Assembly (NCBI RefSeq): GCF_014486695.1
Contig: NZ_JACTAB010000001.1
Location: 682,001 to 746,000 of the forward strand
DNA length: 64,000 nt
Source: Flavobacterium buctense
GTDB taxonomy: Bacteria; Bacteroidota; Bacteroidia; Flavobacteriales; Flavobacteriaceae
Direction of reading: 5' to 3'
The translations under genes were made by a program, and so were the position numbers. The notes below the pieces were generated by a model. It saw only the letters and a program-made list of their open reading frames with translations, was not told the origin of the DNA and ran no database searches. Of this stretch, positions 4,221 through 56,809 are shown piece by piece (position 1 is the first letter of the stretch; each line of letters begins with the position of its first letter).

Positions 4221-4234
4221 AGTTTCTTTTTTAA

Positions 4235-4255
4235 ACTCCTAACTCCCAACTATAG
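4235..4255 (-). repeat. Heptad array overlapping the lrp stop codon
   Basis: Three 7-base units (ACTCCTA, ACTCCCA, ACTATAG on the plus strand). The first 20 bases are identical to 55574-55593, directly downstream of the S23 gene. The TAG stop of the Lrp gene (4250-4252) lies inside the array. Confidence 0.75.
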
Positions 4256-14816: not shown

Positions 14817-14822
14817 TTAGCG

Positions 14823-14856
14823 AAATTACGAATTAGAAATTACGAATTAGAAATTA
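14823..14856. repeat. Heptad array AAATTAC/GAATTAG
   Basis: Two perfect 14-base copies AAATTACGAATTAG plus AAATTA; each copy is two 7-base words. It is located 7 bases upstream of the epimerase start. No reverse-complement arm is seen here. Confidence 0.75.
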
Positions 14857-29246: not shown

Positions 29247-29272
29247 CTTTTCCCTTTTCCCTTTTCCCTTTT
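29247..29272. repeat. Heptad array CTTTTCC
   Basis: Three perfect CTTTTCC units and a partial fourth, 36 bases after the ATL stop codon. The same words occur at 1978-2023 and 56723-56809. Confidence 0.7.
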
Positions 29273-29348: not shown

Positions 29349-30482
29349 ATGAAACTAGATAGAAAAGAAATCTTAGCAGCTTTAGAAACCATTACTATCG
29401 CAGGCGAAGGAAAAAATATGGTCGAAAGCGGTGCCGTAAAAAACGTACTGACCTTCGGCAATGAAGTCGTAGTCGATTTAGTAATCACAACACCGGCGAT
29501 GCACATCAAAAAACGCGCGGAAGACGACATCAAAAAATTAATCCACGAAAAATTCTCTTCGGATGCTGAGGTTAAAGTCAACATCAAAGTAGAAACACCA
29601 ACCCAAAATCCGAACGAAATTAAAGGCAAAGCCATTCCGGGTATCAGCAATATTATTGCGGTTGCTTCAGGAAAAGGCGGCGTTGGGAAATCAACTGTGA
29701 CCGCAAACTTAGCCGTGACTTTGGCCAAAATGGGTTTTAAAGTCGGAATCTTGGATGCCGATATTTATGGTCCATCAATGCCGATTATGTTCGACGTAGA
29801 AAATGAGAAGCCAATCTCGATTGAAGTTGACGGCAAATCCAAAATGAAACCGGTCGAAAGCTACGAAATCAAATTGCTTTCTATTGGATTCTTTACAGCT
29901 CCGAGTCAGGCCGTAATTTGGCGTGGTCCAATGGCTTCTAAAGCTTTGAACCAAATGATATTCGATGCCGCTTGGGGCGAATTAGATTTCATGCTAATCG
30001 ATTTACCACCGGGAACAGGCGATATTCATTTGTCAATTATGCAATCCTTACCAATCACCGGTGCTGTTGTAGTAAGTACTCCACAGGCAGTTGCTTTGGC
30101 GGATGCCAAAAAAGGAGTATCGATGTTTTTATCAGACAGTATCAATGTTCCGGTTTTAGGAATCATAGAAAATATGGCTTATTTCACTCCTGAAGAATTG
30201 CCAAATAACAAATATTACATCTTCGGAAAAGAAGGTGCCAAAAACCTGGCGGAAGATTTACAAGTGCCGTTTTTAGGGGAAGTGCCATTGGTACAAAGCA
30301 TTCGCGAAGCTGGCGATTACGGTCGTCCGGCAGCGTTGCAAACGGCTTCGGTAATCGAAAGGGTTTTCGAAGAAATCACCAGAAATGTTGTGCAGGAAAC
30401 GGTAAACAGAAACAATGATTTGCCACCAACCGAAGCAATCAAAATAACTACCATGGCAGGTTGTTCTGCTGTAAAAAAATAG
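29349..30482 (+). CDS. Mrp/NBP35 family Fe-S carrier ATPase
   Basis: A 377 aa P-loop ATPase that helps load iron-sulphur clusters. N-terminal MIP18/FSCA-type domain (about 1-85), then ASGKGGVGKSTVTANLAVTL (deviant Walker A, about 102-120), ILDADIYGPSMP, and LIDLPPGTGDIHLS. The CxxC pair that usually binds the bridging cluster is absent: after ENMAYFTP the sequence reads EELPNNKYYIFG. I recall the same in other Flavobacteria. A NifU-type scaffold gene follows after a repeat-filled spacer. Confidence 0.92.
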   Translation: MKLDRKEILAALETITIAGEGKNMVESGAVKNVLTFGNEVVVDLVITTPAMHIKKRAEDDIKKLIHEKFSSDAEVKVNIKVETPTQNPNEIKGKAIPGISNIIAVASGKGGVGKSTVTANLAVTLAKMGFKVGILDADIYGPSMPIMFDVENEKPISIEVDGKSKMKPVESYEIKLLSIGFFTAPSQAVIWRGPMASKALNQMIFDAAWGELDFMLIDLPPGTGDIHLSIMQSLPITGAVVVSTPQAVALADAKKGVSMFLSDSINVPVLGIIENMAYFTPEELPNNKYYIFGKEGAKNLAEDLQVPFLGEVPLVQSIREAGDYGRPAALQTASVIERVFEEITRNVVQETVNRNNDLPPTEAIKITTMAGCSAVKK

Positions 30483-30485
30483 ACC

Positions 30486-30567
30486 GGTTAGACTTCTTAG
30501 ATTATTAGACTACTCAGAAAATGAAGTATCTAAAAATCTAAAAGGTCTAACAATCTAACCATCTAAA
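30486..30567. repeat. Octad array with forward and reverse words
   Basis: Four 8-base words of the TTCTTAGA type (30486-30517), a 10-base gap, then five words of the complementary ATCTAAAA type (30528-30567). It can fold as an imperfect hairpin. It begins 4 bases after the mrp stop codon. Confidence 0.75.
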
Positions 30568-30940: not shown

Positions 30941-30980
30941 CCTTAGCGCCTCAGAACCTCAGAACCTTAGAACCTCAAAA
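30941..30980. repeat. Octad array CCTNAGNN, five units
   Basis: Exactly five 8-base units of the CCTCAGAA type, the last ending 1 base before the reductase ATG at 30982. Confidence 0.78.
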
Positions 30981-30981
30981 A

Positions 30982-52553: not shown

Positions 52554-52571
52554 TAGGCAAAGAAACACAAA

Positions 52572-52599
52572 ACTTTGAACTTGAAACTTTAAACCTGAA
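52572..52599. repeat. Heptad array ACTTTGA type, four units
   Basis: Four consecutive 7-base words of the pattern AC(T/C)T(T/G)(A/G)A, upstream of ruvC and just beyond the flippase-like gene start. No complementary arm is seen. Confidence 0.65.
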
Positions 52600-52610
52600 A
52601 CAAAAATCTT

Positions 52611-53165
52611 TTGGCCAACGAACGCATCATATTAGGCATTGATCCAGGAACCACAATAATGGGTTTCGGACTAATCAAAGTAGTCAACAAAAAAATGGAG
52701 TTCATTCAGTTGAACGAGCTCATTTTGAGTAAGTATGATGATCATTACACTAAGTTAAAAGTCATTTTCGAAAGAACCATTGAACTAATAGAAACCCATC
52801 ATCCCGACGAGATTGCCATCGAAGCCCCGTTTTTCGGAAAGAATGTGCAATCAATGTTAAAATTAGGAAGAGCACAAGGCGTTGCTATGGCAGCGGGTTT
52901 GTCACGTCAAATTCCTATCACCGAATACGAACCCAAAAAAATTAAAATGGCCATCACCGGCAACGGAAATGCCAGCAAAGAACAAGTCGCCAAAATGCTA
53001 CAACAACTTCTAGGGTTAAAAGAATTGCCCAAAAATCTAGATTCCACCGATGGTTTAGCTGCGGCAGTTTGTCATTTTTTTAACTCAGGAAAAGTGACAG
53101 GCGCAAAAAGTTATACCGGTTGGGATGCTTTTGTGAAACAAAATGAAGAACGAATAAAAAAATAG
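52611..53165 (+). CDS. ruvC: Crossover junction endodeoxyribonuclease RuvC
   Basis: A 184 aa Holliday junction resolvase. Catalytic acids: first Asp in ILGIDPGTTIMGFGL, Glu in IAIEAPFFGKNVQS, and the C-terminal pair in NLDSTDGLAAAVCHFF. The usual start codon position is TTG at 52611 (MANERIILGIDPG); no ATG exists before the catalytic motif. The TAG stop (53163-53165) is inside the first bases of the heptad array that fills the gap to hemW. Confidence 0.95.
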   Translation: MANERIILGIDPGTTIMGFGLIKVVNKKMEFIQLNELILSKYDDHYTKLKVIFERTIELIETHHPDEIAIEAPFFGKNVQSMLKLGRAQGVAMAAGLSRQIPITEYEPKKIKMAITGNGNASKEQVAKMLQQLLGLKELPKNLDSTDGLAAAVCHFFNSGKVTGAKSYTGWDAFVKQNEERIKK

Positions 53166-53216
53166 TGTTCAGTATTCAGTGTTCAGTAATCAGTTCTGAC
53201 CACTGACCACTGTCCA
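53162..53216. repeat. Heptad array, forward then reverse-complement words
   Basis: In strict 7-base register: four TTCAGTA-type words (53168-53195), then three CTGACCA-type words (53196-53216), the complement of TGGTCAG. The switch keeps the phase and gives a foldable hairpin. The first 34 bases match leuS 721-754 at 32 positions. Confidence 0.85.
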
Positions 53217-53231
53217 TTGAGTACTAAAAAA

Positions 53232-54376: not shown

Positions 54377-55132
54377 TTGAAAGCAGTAATCAATAATAAC
54401 TTCGAAATCGACTTATCAAAACCCATTGATATTTCCATTCCATTATCCAACTCCGATGCGAATCCGATTGCGTGGTATCTTGAAAAACCTGAAATCAAAC
54501 CGGTTATATTTGGAGATTGGGTTGGAAAAGTATCCGAAGGCAGTTCGACCAATTTCAATAACATTTTCTTCAATCCGCACGGACACGGAACGCACACCGA
54601 ATGTCTCGGTCATATTACTAAAGAATTTTTCAGCATCAACCAATGTTTGAAACAGTTTTTCTTTACTGCCGAATTGATTTCTATTGAACCGGAAAGTGTA
54701 GTAGATGATTTAATTATTACTAAATTTCAAATAGTATCCGCTTTAGCAGGTAAATCTCCGGAAGCCATTGTTATTAGGACTTTACCAAATGAAACGGGTA
54801 AAAAACATAAAAATTATTCCCATACCAATCCGCCATATTTAGCCGAAGACGCAGCGATTTTTATTCGTGAAAGCGGCATCAAACATTTGCTAATTGATTT
54901 GCCAAGTGTAGATAGGGAAGAAGACGAAGGAAAACTATTGGCACACAAAGCTTTTTGGAACGTGAAAAATGTCGATAATCTCAATGCTGATGCGAGATTG
55001 GATTCCACAATTACTGAAATGATTTATGTGGAAGAAGATGTTAAAGACGGAAGTTATATTCTTAATTTACAAATCGCTTCGTTTGAAAATGATGCTTCGC
55101 CAAGCAAACCGGTTTTGTATAGTTTGGAGTAG
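54377..55132 (+). CDS. Cyclase family protein (kynurenine formamidase-like)
   Basis: A 251 aa protein of the cyclase/KynB metal-dependent hydrolase family. The metal motif reads NPHGHGTHTECLGHI, where the family has H.GTH.D.P.H: Glu stands for Asp and the Pro is missing, so the site is divergent. Later IVIRTLPNE and HLLIDLPSVDREEDEG are family blocks. The start is TTG at 54377, 11 bases after hemW. The C-terminal SLE-stop is encoded by the first copy of the AGTTTGGAGT repeat, which suggests the repeat trimmed or replaced the original gene end. Confidence 0.82.
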   Translation: MKAVINNNFEIDLSKPIDISIPLSNSDANPIAWYLEKPEIKPVIFGDWVGKVSEGSSTNFNNIFFNPHGHGTHTECLGHITKEFFSINQCLKQFFFTAELISIEPESVVDDLIITKFQIVSALAGKSPEAIVIRTLPNETGKKHKNYSHTNPPYLAEDAAIFIRESGIKHLLIDLPSVDREEDEGKLLAHKAFWNVKNVDNLNADARLDSTITEMIYVEEDVKDGSYILNLQIASFENDASPSKPVLYSLE

Positions 55133-55176
55133 GGAGACTTTAGTTTGGAGTAAGAAAAAGGAGTTTGGAGTTTATT
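55121..55176 (+). repeat. Heptad array AGTTTGG, left of the S23 gene
   Basis: Three copies of AGTTTGGAGT at 55121, 55142 and 55162, in 7-base spacing with one slip, starting inside the cyclase coding end. It is the inverted partner of 55560-55594. Confidence 0.82.
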
Positions 55177-55187
55177 AAAATAGTATT

Positions 55188-55559
55188 ATGGATTATAGAG
55201 ATTTATTGGGTTATAAGAAATCATTTGAATTGGCTATGAAGGTATTTGAAGTTTCTAAACATTTTCCAAAAGAAGAAAAATATTCTTTAACTGATCAAGT
55301 CAGAAGGAGTTCAAGGAGTGTTACTGTCACTATAACTGAAGCTTATAGAAAAAGAGTTTATCCAAAGAGCTTCTTTAGTAAGCTTAGTGATGCAGAAGCT
55401 GAAAATTCTGAAACTCAGGTATGGTTAGATTTTTCATTAGCTTGTGATTATTTGGAAGAAGTAAAATATAATGAACTCACTGCTATAAATAATGAAGTAG
55501 GAAAATTAATTTATTACATGATGAACAATCCAGATAAATTTGGTTCAAGCAAAATCTAA
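55188..55559 (+). CDS. Four-helix-bundle protein, S23 rRNA intervening-sequence family
   Basis: A 123 aa protein of the S23/IVP four-helix-bundle family (relatives lie in 23S rRNA intervening sequences of Leptospira, and the family includes Avd of diversity-generating retroelements). Typical blocks: YKKSFELAMKVFEVSKHFPK, YSLTDQVRRSSRSV, the helix IEAY-type ITEAYRKR, FFSKLSDAEAENSETQVWLDF, and LIYYMMNN. Basic residues on helices 2-3 suggest nucleic-acid binding. The gene is bracketed by inverted heptad arrays (AGTTTGG left, ACTCCAA right), and the right array fills the gap to the next ATG exactly. No rRNA or reverse transcriptase is nearby. Function unknown. Confidence 0.92.
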   Translation: MDYRDLLGYKKSFELAMKVFEVSKHFPKEEKYSLTDQVRRSSRSVTVTITEAYRKRVYPKSFFSKLSDAEAENSETQVWLDFSLACDYLEEVKYNELTAINNEVGKLIYYMMNNPDKFGSSKI

Positions 55560-55594
55560 ACTCCAAACTAATCACTCCTAACTCCCAACTATAA
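55560..55594. repeat. Heptad array ACTCCAA, right of the S23 gene
   Basis: Exactly five 7-base words between the S23 stop and the next ATG. The first ten bases are the reverse complement of AGTTTGGAGT; bases 55574-55593 are identical to 4235-4254. Confidence 0.85.
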
Positions 55595-55966
55595 ATGGAC
55601 ATCCAACAGCTTTACGAATTCTGTCTTTCCAAAAAAGGCGTAACCGAGCACTTTCCGTTCGACGAAGACACTTTGGTGTTTAAAGTCGGCGGTAAAATGT
55701 TTTGCCTGACATCGTTTAAAGAATGGGAAAAAGGAACGCCTGCGCTCAATTTAAAATGTGATCCCGAACGTGGTGAAGAACTTCGGGCTGAATTCGAGGC
55801 GATACAACCCGGTTATCACATGAGCAAAATCCATTGGAATACCATAAGTTTTAACAGCGATGTTTCAGATAAAATGATGTGTGAACTGATAAATCATTCC
55901 TATGAATTGGTTTTCAAAAGTTTGACCAAAAAAAGTCAAAACGAAATTCTCGAAAATGAGAATTAG
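55595..55966 (+). CDS. MmcQ/YjbR family protein
   Basis: A 123 aa protein of the MmcQ/YjbR family (DNA-binding-like double-wing fold). IQQLYEFCLSKKGVTEHFPFD, TLVFKVGGKMFCLTSF, LNLKCDPERGEELRAEF and KIHWNTISF are characteristic. The biochemical role is unclear; some members are linked to DNA or to drug resistance annotations. The ATG directly follows the heptad array. Confidence 0.92.
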   Translation: MDIQQLYEFCLSKKGVTEHFPFDEDTLVFKVGGKMFCLTSFKEWEKGTPALNLKCDPERGEELRAEFEAIQPGYHMSKIHWNTISFNSDVSDKMMCELINHSYELVFKSLTKKSQNEILENEN

Positions 55967-56722: not shown

Positions 56723-56809
56723 AAGGGATTAGTAATAAGGGAAAAGCAAAAAGGGAATAATTAAAATATAATTAACTATTCCCTTTTTGCTTTTCCCTTA
56801 TCCCTTTTT
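56723..56809. terminator. Long perfect hairpin between convergent genes
   Basis: A 23-bp perfect inverted repeat (56737-56759 with 56777-56799) around a 17-base A/T loop, with further AAGGGAT/ATCCCTT pairing outside. It fills the whole gap between the PH-SHOCT stop and the convergent DUF4407 stop and can terminate both. Confidence 0.85.

Follow-up and report, generated by a model that had tools for sequence, protein, structure and literature searches.

In the window analysed here, a 64-kb stretch of DNA (64,000 nucleotides) from Flavobacterium buctense, an S23/IVP gene forms the loop of an inverted array of seven-base words. This gene probably represents the coding form of a dispersed family of hairpins in intergenic DNA, whose arms are mirror-image runs of 7–8 base words, with the S23 protein as the partner of the word.

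The S23 element of the window and its six counterparts

The element lies between a putative cyclase gene and a yjbR gene, in the following arrangement:
54377–55132, + strand: putative cyclase gene upstream of the element (PF04199, E 1.6e-17)
55121–55171, + strand: left arm, with AGTTTGGAGT words at 55121, 55142 and 55162 and related words between them; holds the cyclase stop
55188–55559, + strand: S23/IVP four-helix-bundle gene of 123 aa (PF05635), loop of the inverted array
55560–55594, + strand: right arm, ACTCCAAACT plus CTCCTAACTCCCAACT words, reaching the next ATG
55595–55966, + strand: YjbR gene downstream of the element (PF04237, E 1.8e-30)

The S23 protein matches positions 1–105 of the 106-position PF05635 profile (23S_rRNA_IVP, S23) with 97 bits, against a cut-off of 33.8 (E 9.1e-28). 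The only other Pfam match is to bAvd, at 39.6 bits and thus just under the cut-off of 40, with none to a nuclease or transposase family. Two solved relatives, 2rld and 2gsc (one entry each), contain five chains per entry, and the available part of PMC4990558 calls the Xanthomonas S23 protein a homopentamer and describes the function of S23 proteins as not known. Among the window S23 gene and five homologues at the same site, dN/dS was 0.05–0.11, indicating strong purifying selection, although this estimate is rough because most dS values were near or above 1.

The 64-kb window contains three copies of AGTTTGGAGT, at 55121, 55142 and 55162, and a single copy of its reverse complement, at 55560. 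The arm-to-arm inverted match was 19, a value reached in none of 2000 dinucleotide shuffles and none of 3000 random window pairs of the same spacing, which confirms that, as the first-pass annotation proposed, an inverted heptad array encloses the S23 gene as its loop. The right array also spans exactly 35 bases, as claimed there, from 55560 to the ATG at 55595. The further claim that the left array begins inside the cyclase coding end and supplies its stop holds for the stop, a TAG within the word run, but the first word may be old coding sequence, since it encodes the cyclase C-terminus YSLE and the array-free relative L239 also has YSLES.

The genome of the window contains seven PF05635 genes, and by eye each has a word of its own on both sides:
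L003: TTAGACTTC
L004: CTAAGGTG/CTGAGG
L005: GTCTTAAT
L006: GATAATT
L007 (the window element): AGTTTGG
L008: AATTTTGAA
L009: ATATTAAA

Six of these seven loci entered the scored sets (L006 has no clean ATG start), and all six scored at least 12 in the gapped inverted-match test, from which L006 and L030 were left out for want of a clean ATG open reading frame. Word similarity among the six averaged 0.045 over 15 pairs. PF05635 was present in 60 of 61 genomes sampled from the genus and in 90 of 118 from the phylum.

Flanks, words and proteins of S23 homologues

Flanks were compared at 136 distinct S23 loci, namely 144 hits kept from 157 loci minus 8 duplicates; hits were left out if they matched the model incompletely, lacked an ATG or had less than 150 bases of flank. 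Eighty S23 loci were found with the window's own protein, so that its wider clade is over-represented in the set, and those taken from the genus and phylum samples were the best-scoring ones. The inverted match, taken as the best score between 120 bases upstream and 120 bases downstream, was at least 10 at 113 of the 136 S23 loci, compared with 48 of 380 control genes taken from the longer loci, which is near the rate of 63 in 680 for shuffles; it was at least 12 at 96/136 and 15/380, respectively. A further set of 28 loci (L460 left out; a 29th row, L436, is L008 again) gave values of at least 10 in 26 cases. Thus, S23 homologues elsewhere do mostly carry flanking arrays, and such arrays are far from equally common beside unrelated genes, the two points on which the first-pass annotation had made the link depend. 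Contamination of the controls by second S23 genes was considered, but redoing them with this in mind left the count nearly unchanged (48/380 versus 49/381).

Among the 15 control genes that scored at least 12, nine look like GxxExxY genes and one like a GIY-YIG gene (one member of each being confirmed by Pfam), three lie beside S23 arrays (hemW of L071, ruvC of L047 and L065), and two, a yjbR and a long gene, had no clear cause. A strongly periodic flank was found at 115 of the 136 S23 loci and at 57 of 238 control genes away from S23, and periodicity alone is less specific than inversion. The best period in these 115 loci was 7 in 87, 8 in 20, 9 in 5 and 6 in 3.

Genes of the GxxExxY type were seen in the loops of inverted CTTTGCG / CACAAAG arrays (L051:4740–5118, L060:4746–5124, L040:1738–2116 and others), the L051 gene being PF13366, with a PD-(D/E)XK fold. 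The inverted match was at least 10 in 15 of 19 parsed GxxExxY loci (30 fetched, 11 unparsed by the motif search), and the family occurs in 49 of 61 genomes of the genus and not in that of the window. Additionally, a GIY-YIG gene (L052:4688–4994) lies between inverted GAACTAGTTTCAGGATC-type words and is perhaps a third family of hairpin passengers. S23 is therefore not the sole passenger of such hairpins.

Native arm pairs exceeded the 95th percentile of mismatched pairs in only 16 of 34 cases, mismatched pairs often sharing words, and native arms folded no better than chimeras with arms of the same word type from other genomes (three word types). Locus-specific compensatory pairing of the arms is thus unsupported, and the pairing may simply follow from the words being mirror images.

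The polarity of the words is fixed relative to the S23 gene: in the 49 loci where each side has two or more AGTRNTC words, the upstream words were mainly forward in 47 and the downstream words mainly reverse in 46. Furthermore, close S23 proteins share a word at different sites, in two clades. Across different-site pairs, word and protein similarity were correlated with a Mantel r of 0.42, the largest value in 500 permutations being 0.115. This first signal was due to the AGTRNTC clade, which comprises 60 loci spread over 12 sites; their proteins cluster in a single group, no member having a median distance above 0.37. When this clade was removed, r in the first locus set dropped to 0.025 and was not significant (143 of 500 permutations as high). 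The further 28 loci are matches of the genome's own S23 protein L008, picked because this genome has gene-less arrays of the L008 word, and a clade with the word AATTACG, present at several sites, entered among the more distant of these matches. With these loci added, r without the AGTRNTC clade was 0.109, as high as in none of 500 permutations. In the 24 different-site pairs closer than 0.3 in protein distance, word similarity was 0.52, versus about 0.05 beyond a distance of 0.6. Different-site pairs between genera gave r 0.189 (largest of 300 permutations, 0.079), with the caveat that one group code may be Flavobacterium itself. The window's S23 clade is about 0.32–0.36 distant from the AGTGNTC clade and has a different word; words turn over quickly.

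By eye, the S23 genes of L013 and L024 lie upstream of fadB-like and fadA-like genes and carry TATACAAT-type words, and at L013 both flanks read in the same direction.

A tblastn search placed S23 in 29 plasmid records, 19 of which were inspected. Three tests were applied to the flanks, one for the inverted match and one each for a period on the upstream and on the downstream side. Of 16 cyanobacterial plasmid loci, some of them close relatives, 15 had p ≤ 0.05, uncorrected, in one or more of these tests and L358 in none; the inverted match was significant in 11 of the 16. The flanks of Riemerella L363 were significant too, and in Gemmatirosa L372 the gene lies between 8-base runs that share one direction (no p-value attached). 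The cyanobacterial words, which we take to be the STRRs of older literature, include:
Nostoc L359: AGTAGGG/ACTCCCT
Anabaena L360: GTGACAG
Pseudanabaena L357: AAAAGCT/AAAAGCC, direct and not inverted

In Azospirillum L373, the S23 gene lies inside a 23S rRNA gene (RF02541, 1469 bits), with arms that read by eye AGGACGG-ATGACAG-AGGACGG-AGGACAG and CCGTCCT-CTGTCTT-CTGTCAT-CCGTCTT; the 120-base test, positioned at the start of the open frame, gave only 6.5 here because the left arm is inside the called frame.

As to the gene neighbourhoods of the cyanobacterial plasmid loci, S23 lies between cas6 and cas4 in L357 and L360, followed in L360 by type I-D cas1d, and between two type III-B genes in L366.

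Gene-less arrays and turnover of sites

The first-pass annotation had listed eight further arrays without a gene in the window. Three of these are significant hairpins, with fold z of −6.3 near 30486, −5.5 at 53162 and −9.6 at 56723, but the other five (4235, 14823, 29247, 30941 and 52572) are one-sided word runs without a significant fold (z between −1.3 and 1.3):
4234–4254, no strand assigned: AACTCCTAACTCCCAACTATA, letters nearly those of the right arm of the S23 element
14822–14856, no strand assigned: GAAATTA/CGAATTA words (7) on one side only; another S23 clade has the word AATTACG
29247–29272, no strand assigned: one-sided run of CTTTTCC (7)
30480–30557, + strand: gene-less hairpin array, word TTAGACTTC/TTAGATT; word type like the L003 flanks (by eye)
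30941–30981, + strand: CTTAG/CTCAG words (8) on one side only, immediately preceding an ATG
52570–52601, no strand assigned: one-sided run of AAACTTT/AAACCTG (7/14)
53163–53226, + strand: hairpin array without a gene, of AGTGTTC words with period 7, in the ruvC|hemW spacer; fold z −4.7 and −5.5 in two runs
56723–56807, no strand assigned: gene-less hairpin array, word AAGGGAA, between convergent genes

Across 864 kb of the window's genome, 41 of 433 spacers were both hairpin-forming and periodic; by eye not all of them are clean word arrays, some being terminators. Ten of these 41 gene-less arrays matched the word of one of the genome's own S23 loci at 0.6 or more in the same polarity, and none in the opposite polarity; in the comparison sets, a match at 0.6 was found in 1 of 410 shuffles and 3 of 213 other candidate spacers. 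The AGTGTTC and AAGGGAT arrays of this genome have no cognate among its seven S23 loci. In 400-kb samples, hairpin-and-period spacers numbered 17/204 in the window's genome, 19/214 in G032, which has 12 S23 genes, and 1/202 in G041, which has none; G045, whose one S23 gene is interrupted by stops, had 14/213, with few word arrays by eye. Of the 22 genomes that encode a clade-A S23 protein (≥160 bits), 19 had CAGTRWT arrays, versus 13 of the 39 that do not (Fisher p 1e-4, uncorrected for phylogeny); G021 and G040 are exceptions, with 60 CAGTRWT matches each and no clade-A S23.

In the same genome, the region around 3583–3747 of L312 holds a CTTCGACAGGCTCAG...CTGAGCTTGTCGAAGG palindrome, a repeat type unlike the word arrays.

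We examined the ruvC|hemW junction in 96 genomes of the genus, 89 of which had both ends (7 rows without the ruvC end were dropped). The two genes abut (gap of at most 5) in 16 genomes, are separated by gaps of 25–188 in 54, enclose an S23 gene in 11 and lie further apart in 8. Among the 54 short gaps, a few of which have an uncertain hemW start (e.g. L186, L202, L227), 41 are periodic (p ≤ 0.05) and 38 have a fold z below −2. Their words are of at least four types by eye, AGTGTTC, AGTTTTC with AGTCTC, AATTTGAA and ATTAGATA, and the window's genome belongs here with its gene-less array. A quick hemW tree was built from 72 rows, 62 of which could be given an unambiguous state. It requires no fewer than 15 changes among the three states and 7 for S23 presence, at least 4 of these 7 being forced by branches with good support; support is weak for 29 of 69 inner branches. 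A search for target-site duplications at this junction found suggestive repeats only, confounded by A-rich start contexts. The cyclase|yjbR junction is less informative; its 99 rows (some genomes twice) comprised 2 with S23, 17 that abut, 11 with short gaps, 54 with yjbR further off and 15 without yjbR.

The occurrence of gene-less forms at a site that holds S23 in relatives supports the suggestion of the first-pass annotation that S23 is linked with a family of word arrays as their partner protein.

Competing explanations and known systems

On the partner-protein reading, the element would be transcribed with its operon and its arms would pair to form a stem whose loop is the S23 message. An S23 pentamer may then recognise these repeated words, whether in RNA or in single-stranded DNA, and help the element to persist and spread, with the gene-less copies served in trans; S23-bearing copies could in that case be the 'autonomous' mobile form envisaged in the first-pass annotation, and no reverse transcriptase would be needed for spread. 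RNase III might trim the stem, as the available part of PMC4990558 reports for an rRNA form.

S23 could instead be an RNA-binding regulator, with the word arrays as its sites in operon leaders and spacers, its own arrays autoregulatory and nothing mobile, an account that we consider unlikely but worth keeping in view. It agrees with the location of 33 of the 41 hairpin-and-period spacers between co-directional genes, with arrays that often abut start codons, with the strong purifying selection on S23 at the cyclase site, and with the translational regulation, by candidate binders other than S23, that the accessible text of PMC4679880 proposes for TAACTGA repeats. However, at the ruvC|hemW junction a single genus includes genomes with no spacer, with a gene-less spacer of one of several word types and with an S23-bearing one, and this switching of states points to turnover rather than a conserved regulon; moreover, S23 genes with one word recur at 12 sites. 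More doubtful still is a DNA-level, REP/RAYT-like process in which the arms would be single-stranded DNA hairpins and S23 would guide a host nuclease or polymerase. The logic of REP/RAYT, the fixed word polarity relative to the gene and the gene-less copies in the same polarity speak for it, but the window S23 protein lacks a nuclease or transposase family match in Pfam, and the present data would fit a reading of RNA as well as of DNA.

Slippage and template switching in AT-rich spacers, with S23 genes merely tolerating the location, would accommodate word numbers that vary between loci and the presence of other small genes in hairpin arrays, but this origin is disfavoured and very improbable given controls near the shuffle rate, words that track the S23 clade across sites in two clades, the near absence of arrays from the S23-free genome G041, and recurrence in Cyanobacteria and rRNA. 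The accessory proteins Avd/bAvd of diversity-generating retroelements are a related family by the sub-threshold Pfam match, and the bAvd score just below its cut-off would suit a bAvd-like accessory role for S23, which we find hardly credible: the window's genome has seven S23 genes but 0 RVT_1 matches, and 30 of 61 genomes of the genus are without a reverse transcriptase match, including the one-contig G042 with 6 S23 genes. Such a partnership was rejected for the window's genome because of the lack of a reverse transcriptase match, barring a highly divergent enzyme.

The window element is close to several known systems. In REP/REPIN–RAYT systems, a partner gene likewise lies between inverted repeats of fixed polarity, and gene-less copies carry the partner's word, as some of the gene-less arrays here may; the first-pass annotation had called its proposed family comparable to REP/RAYT in logic, and the likeness may go beyond logic. 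Unlike the RAYT partner, a Y1 HUH transposase, the window S23 protein is a four-helix bundle without a transposase match in Pfam, and whereas REP/RAYT arms are one 20–30 base palindrome, those of the window element are runs of 7–8 base words.

ORF-less forms of rRNA intervening sequences (IVSs) occur in Salmonella. With 23S rRNA IVSs that contain an S23p/IVP ORF, the window element shares inverted arms enclosing the same ORF family, and with the Azospirillum IVS also arms of heptad words. It differs in lying between protein genes, without any Rfam match at the gathering score, in a genome with seven S23 loci, and in its word-array arms and their link with the S23 clade, which are absent from the part of PMC4990558 at hand. 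The same source describes another rRNA IVS in which a variable number of heptameric GACAGAT repeats immediately precede the S23p start, reports RNase III excision of that IVS and suggests that S23p from one rRNA IVS is not produced in vivo; within the literature searched, these heptads are the nearest prior work. The best reading of rRNA IVSs is that they are one case of a dispersed family of word-array hairpins with an S23 partner.

Heptameric repeats in spacers have been reported in Cyanobacteria, Xanthomonas, Beggiatoaceae and Bacteroidetes. Like the heptanucleotide repeats of Cyanobacteria, of Xanthomonas/Nostoc (GGGNATC) and of Beggiatoaceae (TAACTGA), the arms of the window element are tandem 7-base words in a spacer, and cyanobacterial S23 genes sit between such heptad runs. 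In the accessible portions of PMC4692102 and PMC4679880, heptad repeats often lie between aligned genes, and the terms S23 and 'four helix' do not appear; for the TAACTGA repeats, horizontal spread is suspected, although 'no mechanism is evident' (PMC4679880, same portion). A search by title and abstract start, whose coverage excludes most subscription journals and bioRxiv, found no literature that links S23/IVP genes with heptad arrays.

We tentatively suggest, as a possibility that falls somewhat short of even, that many orphan bacterial tandem repeats of 6–9 base words (cyanobacterial heptanucleotides, Xanthomonas GGGAATC, Beggiatoa TAACTGA and the Flavobacterium spacer hairpins) and rRNA IVSs may be one class of element. 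These would be word-array hairpins propagated by S23 proteins that read a clade-specific word and have no nuclease, transposase or reverse transcriptase of their own, with the GxxExxY nucleases as a parallel class. S23 proteins and heptad repeats thereby each gain the other as a candidate partner, and the word code becomes testable in vitro. On this view, rRNA IVSs would be one of the places where a more widespread element lands, and the spread would take place with no mobility enzyme that can be recognised.
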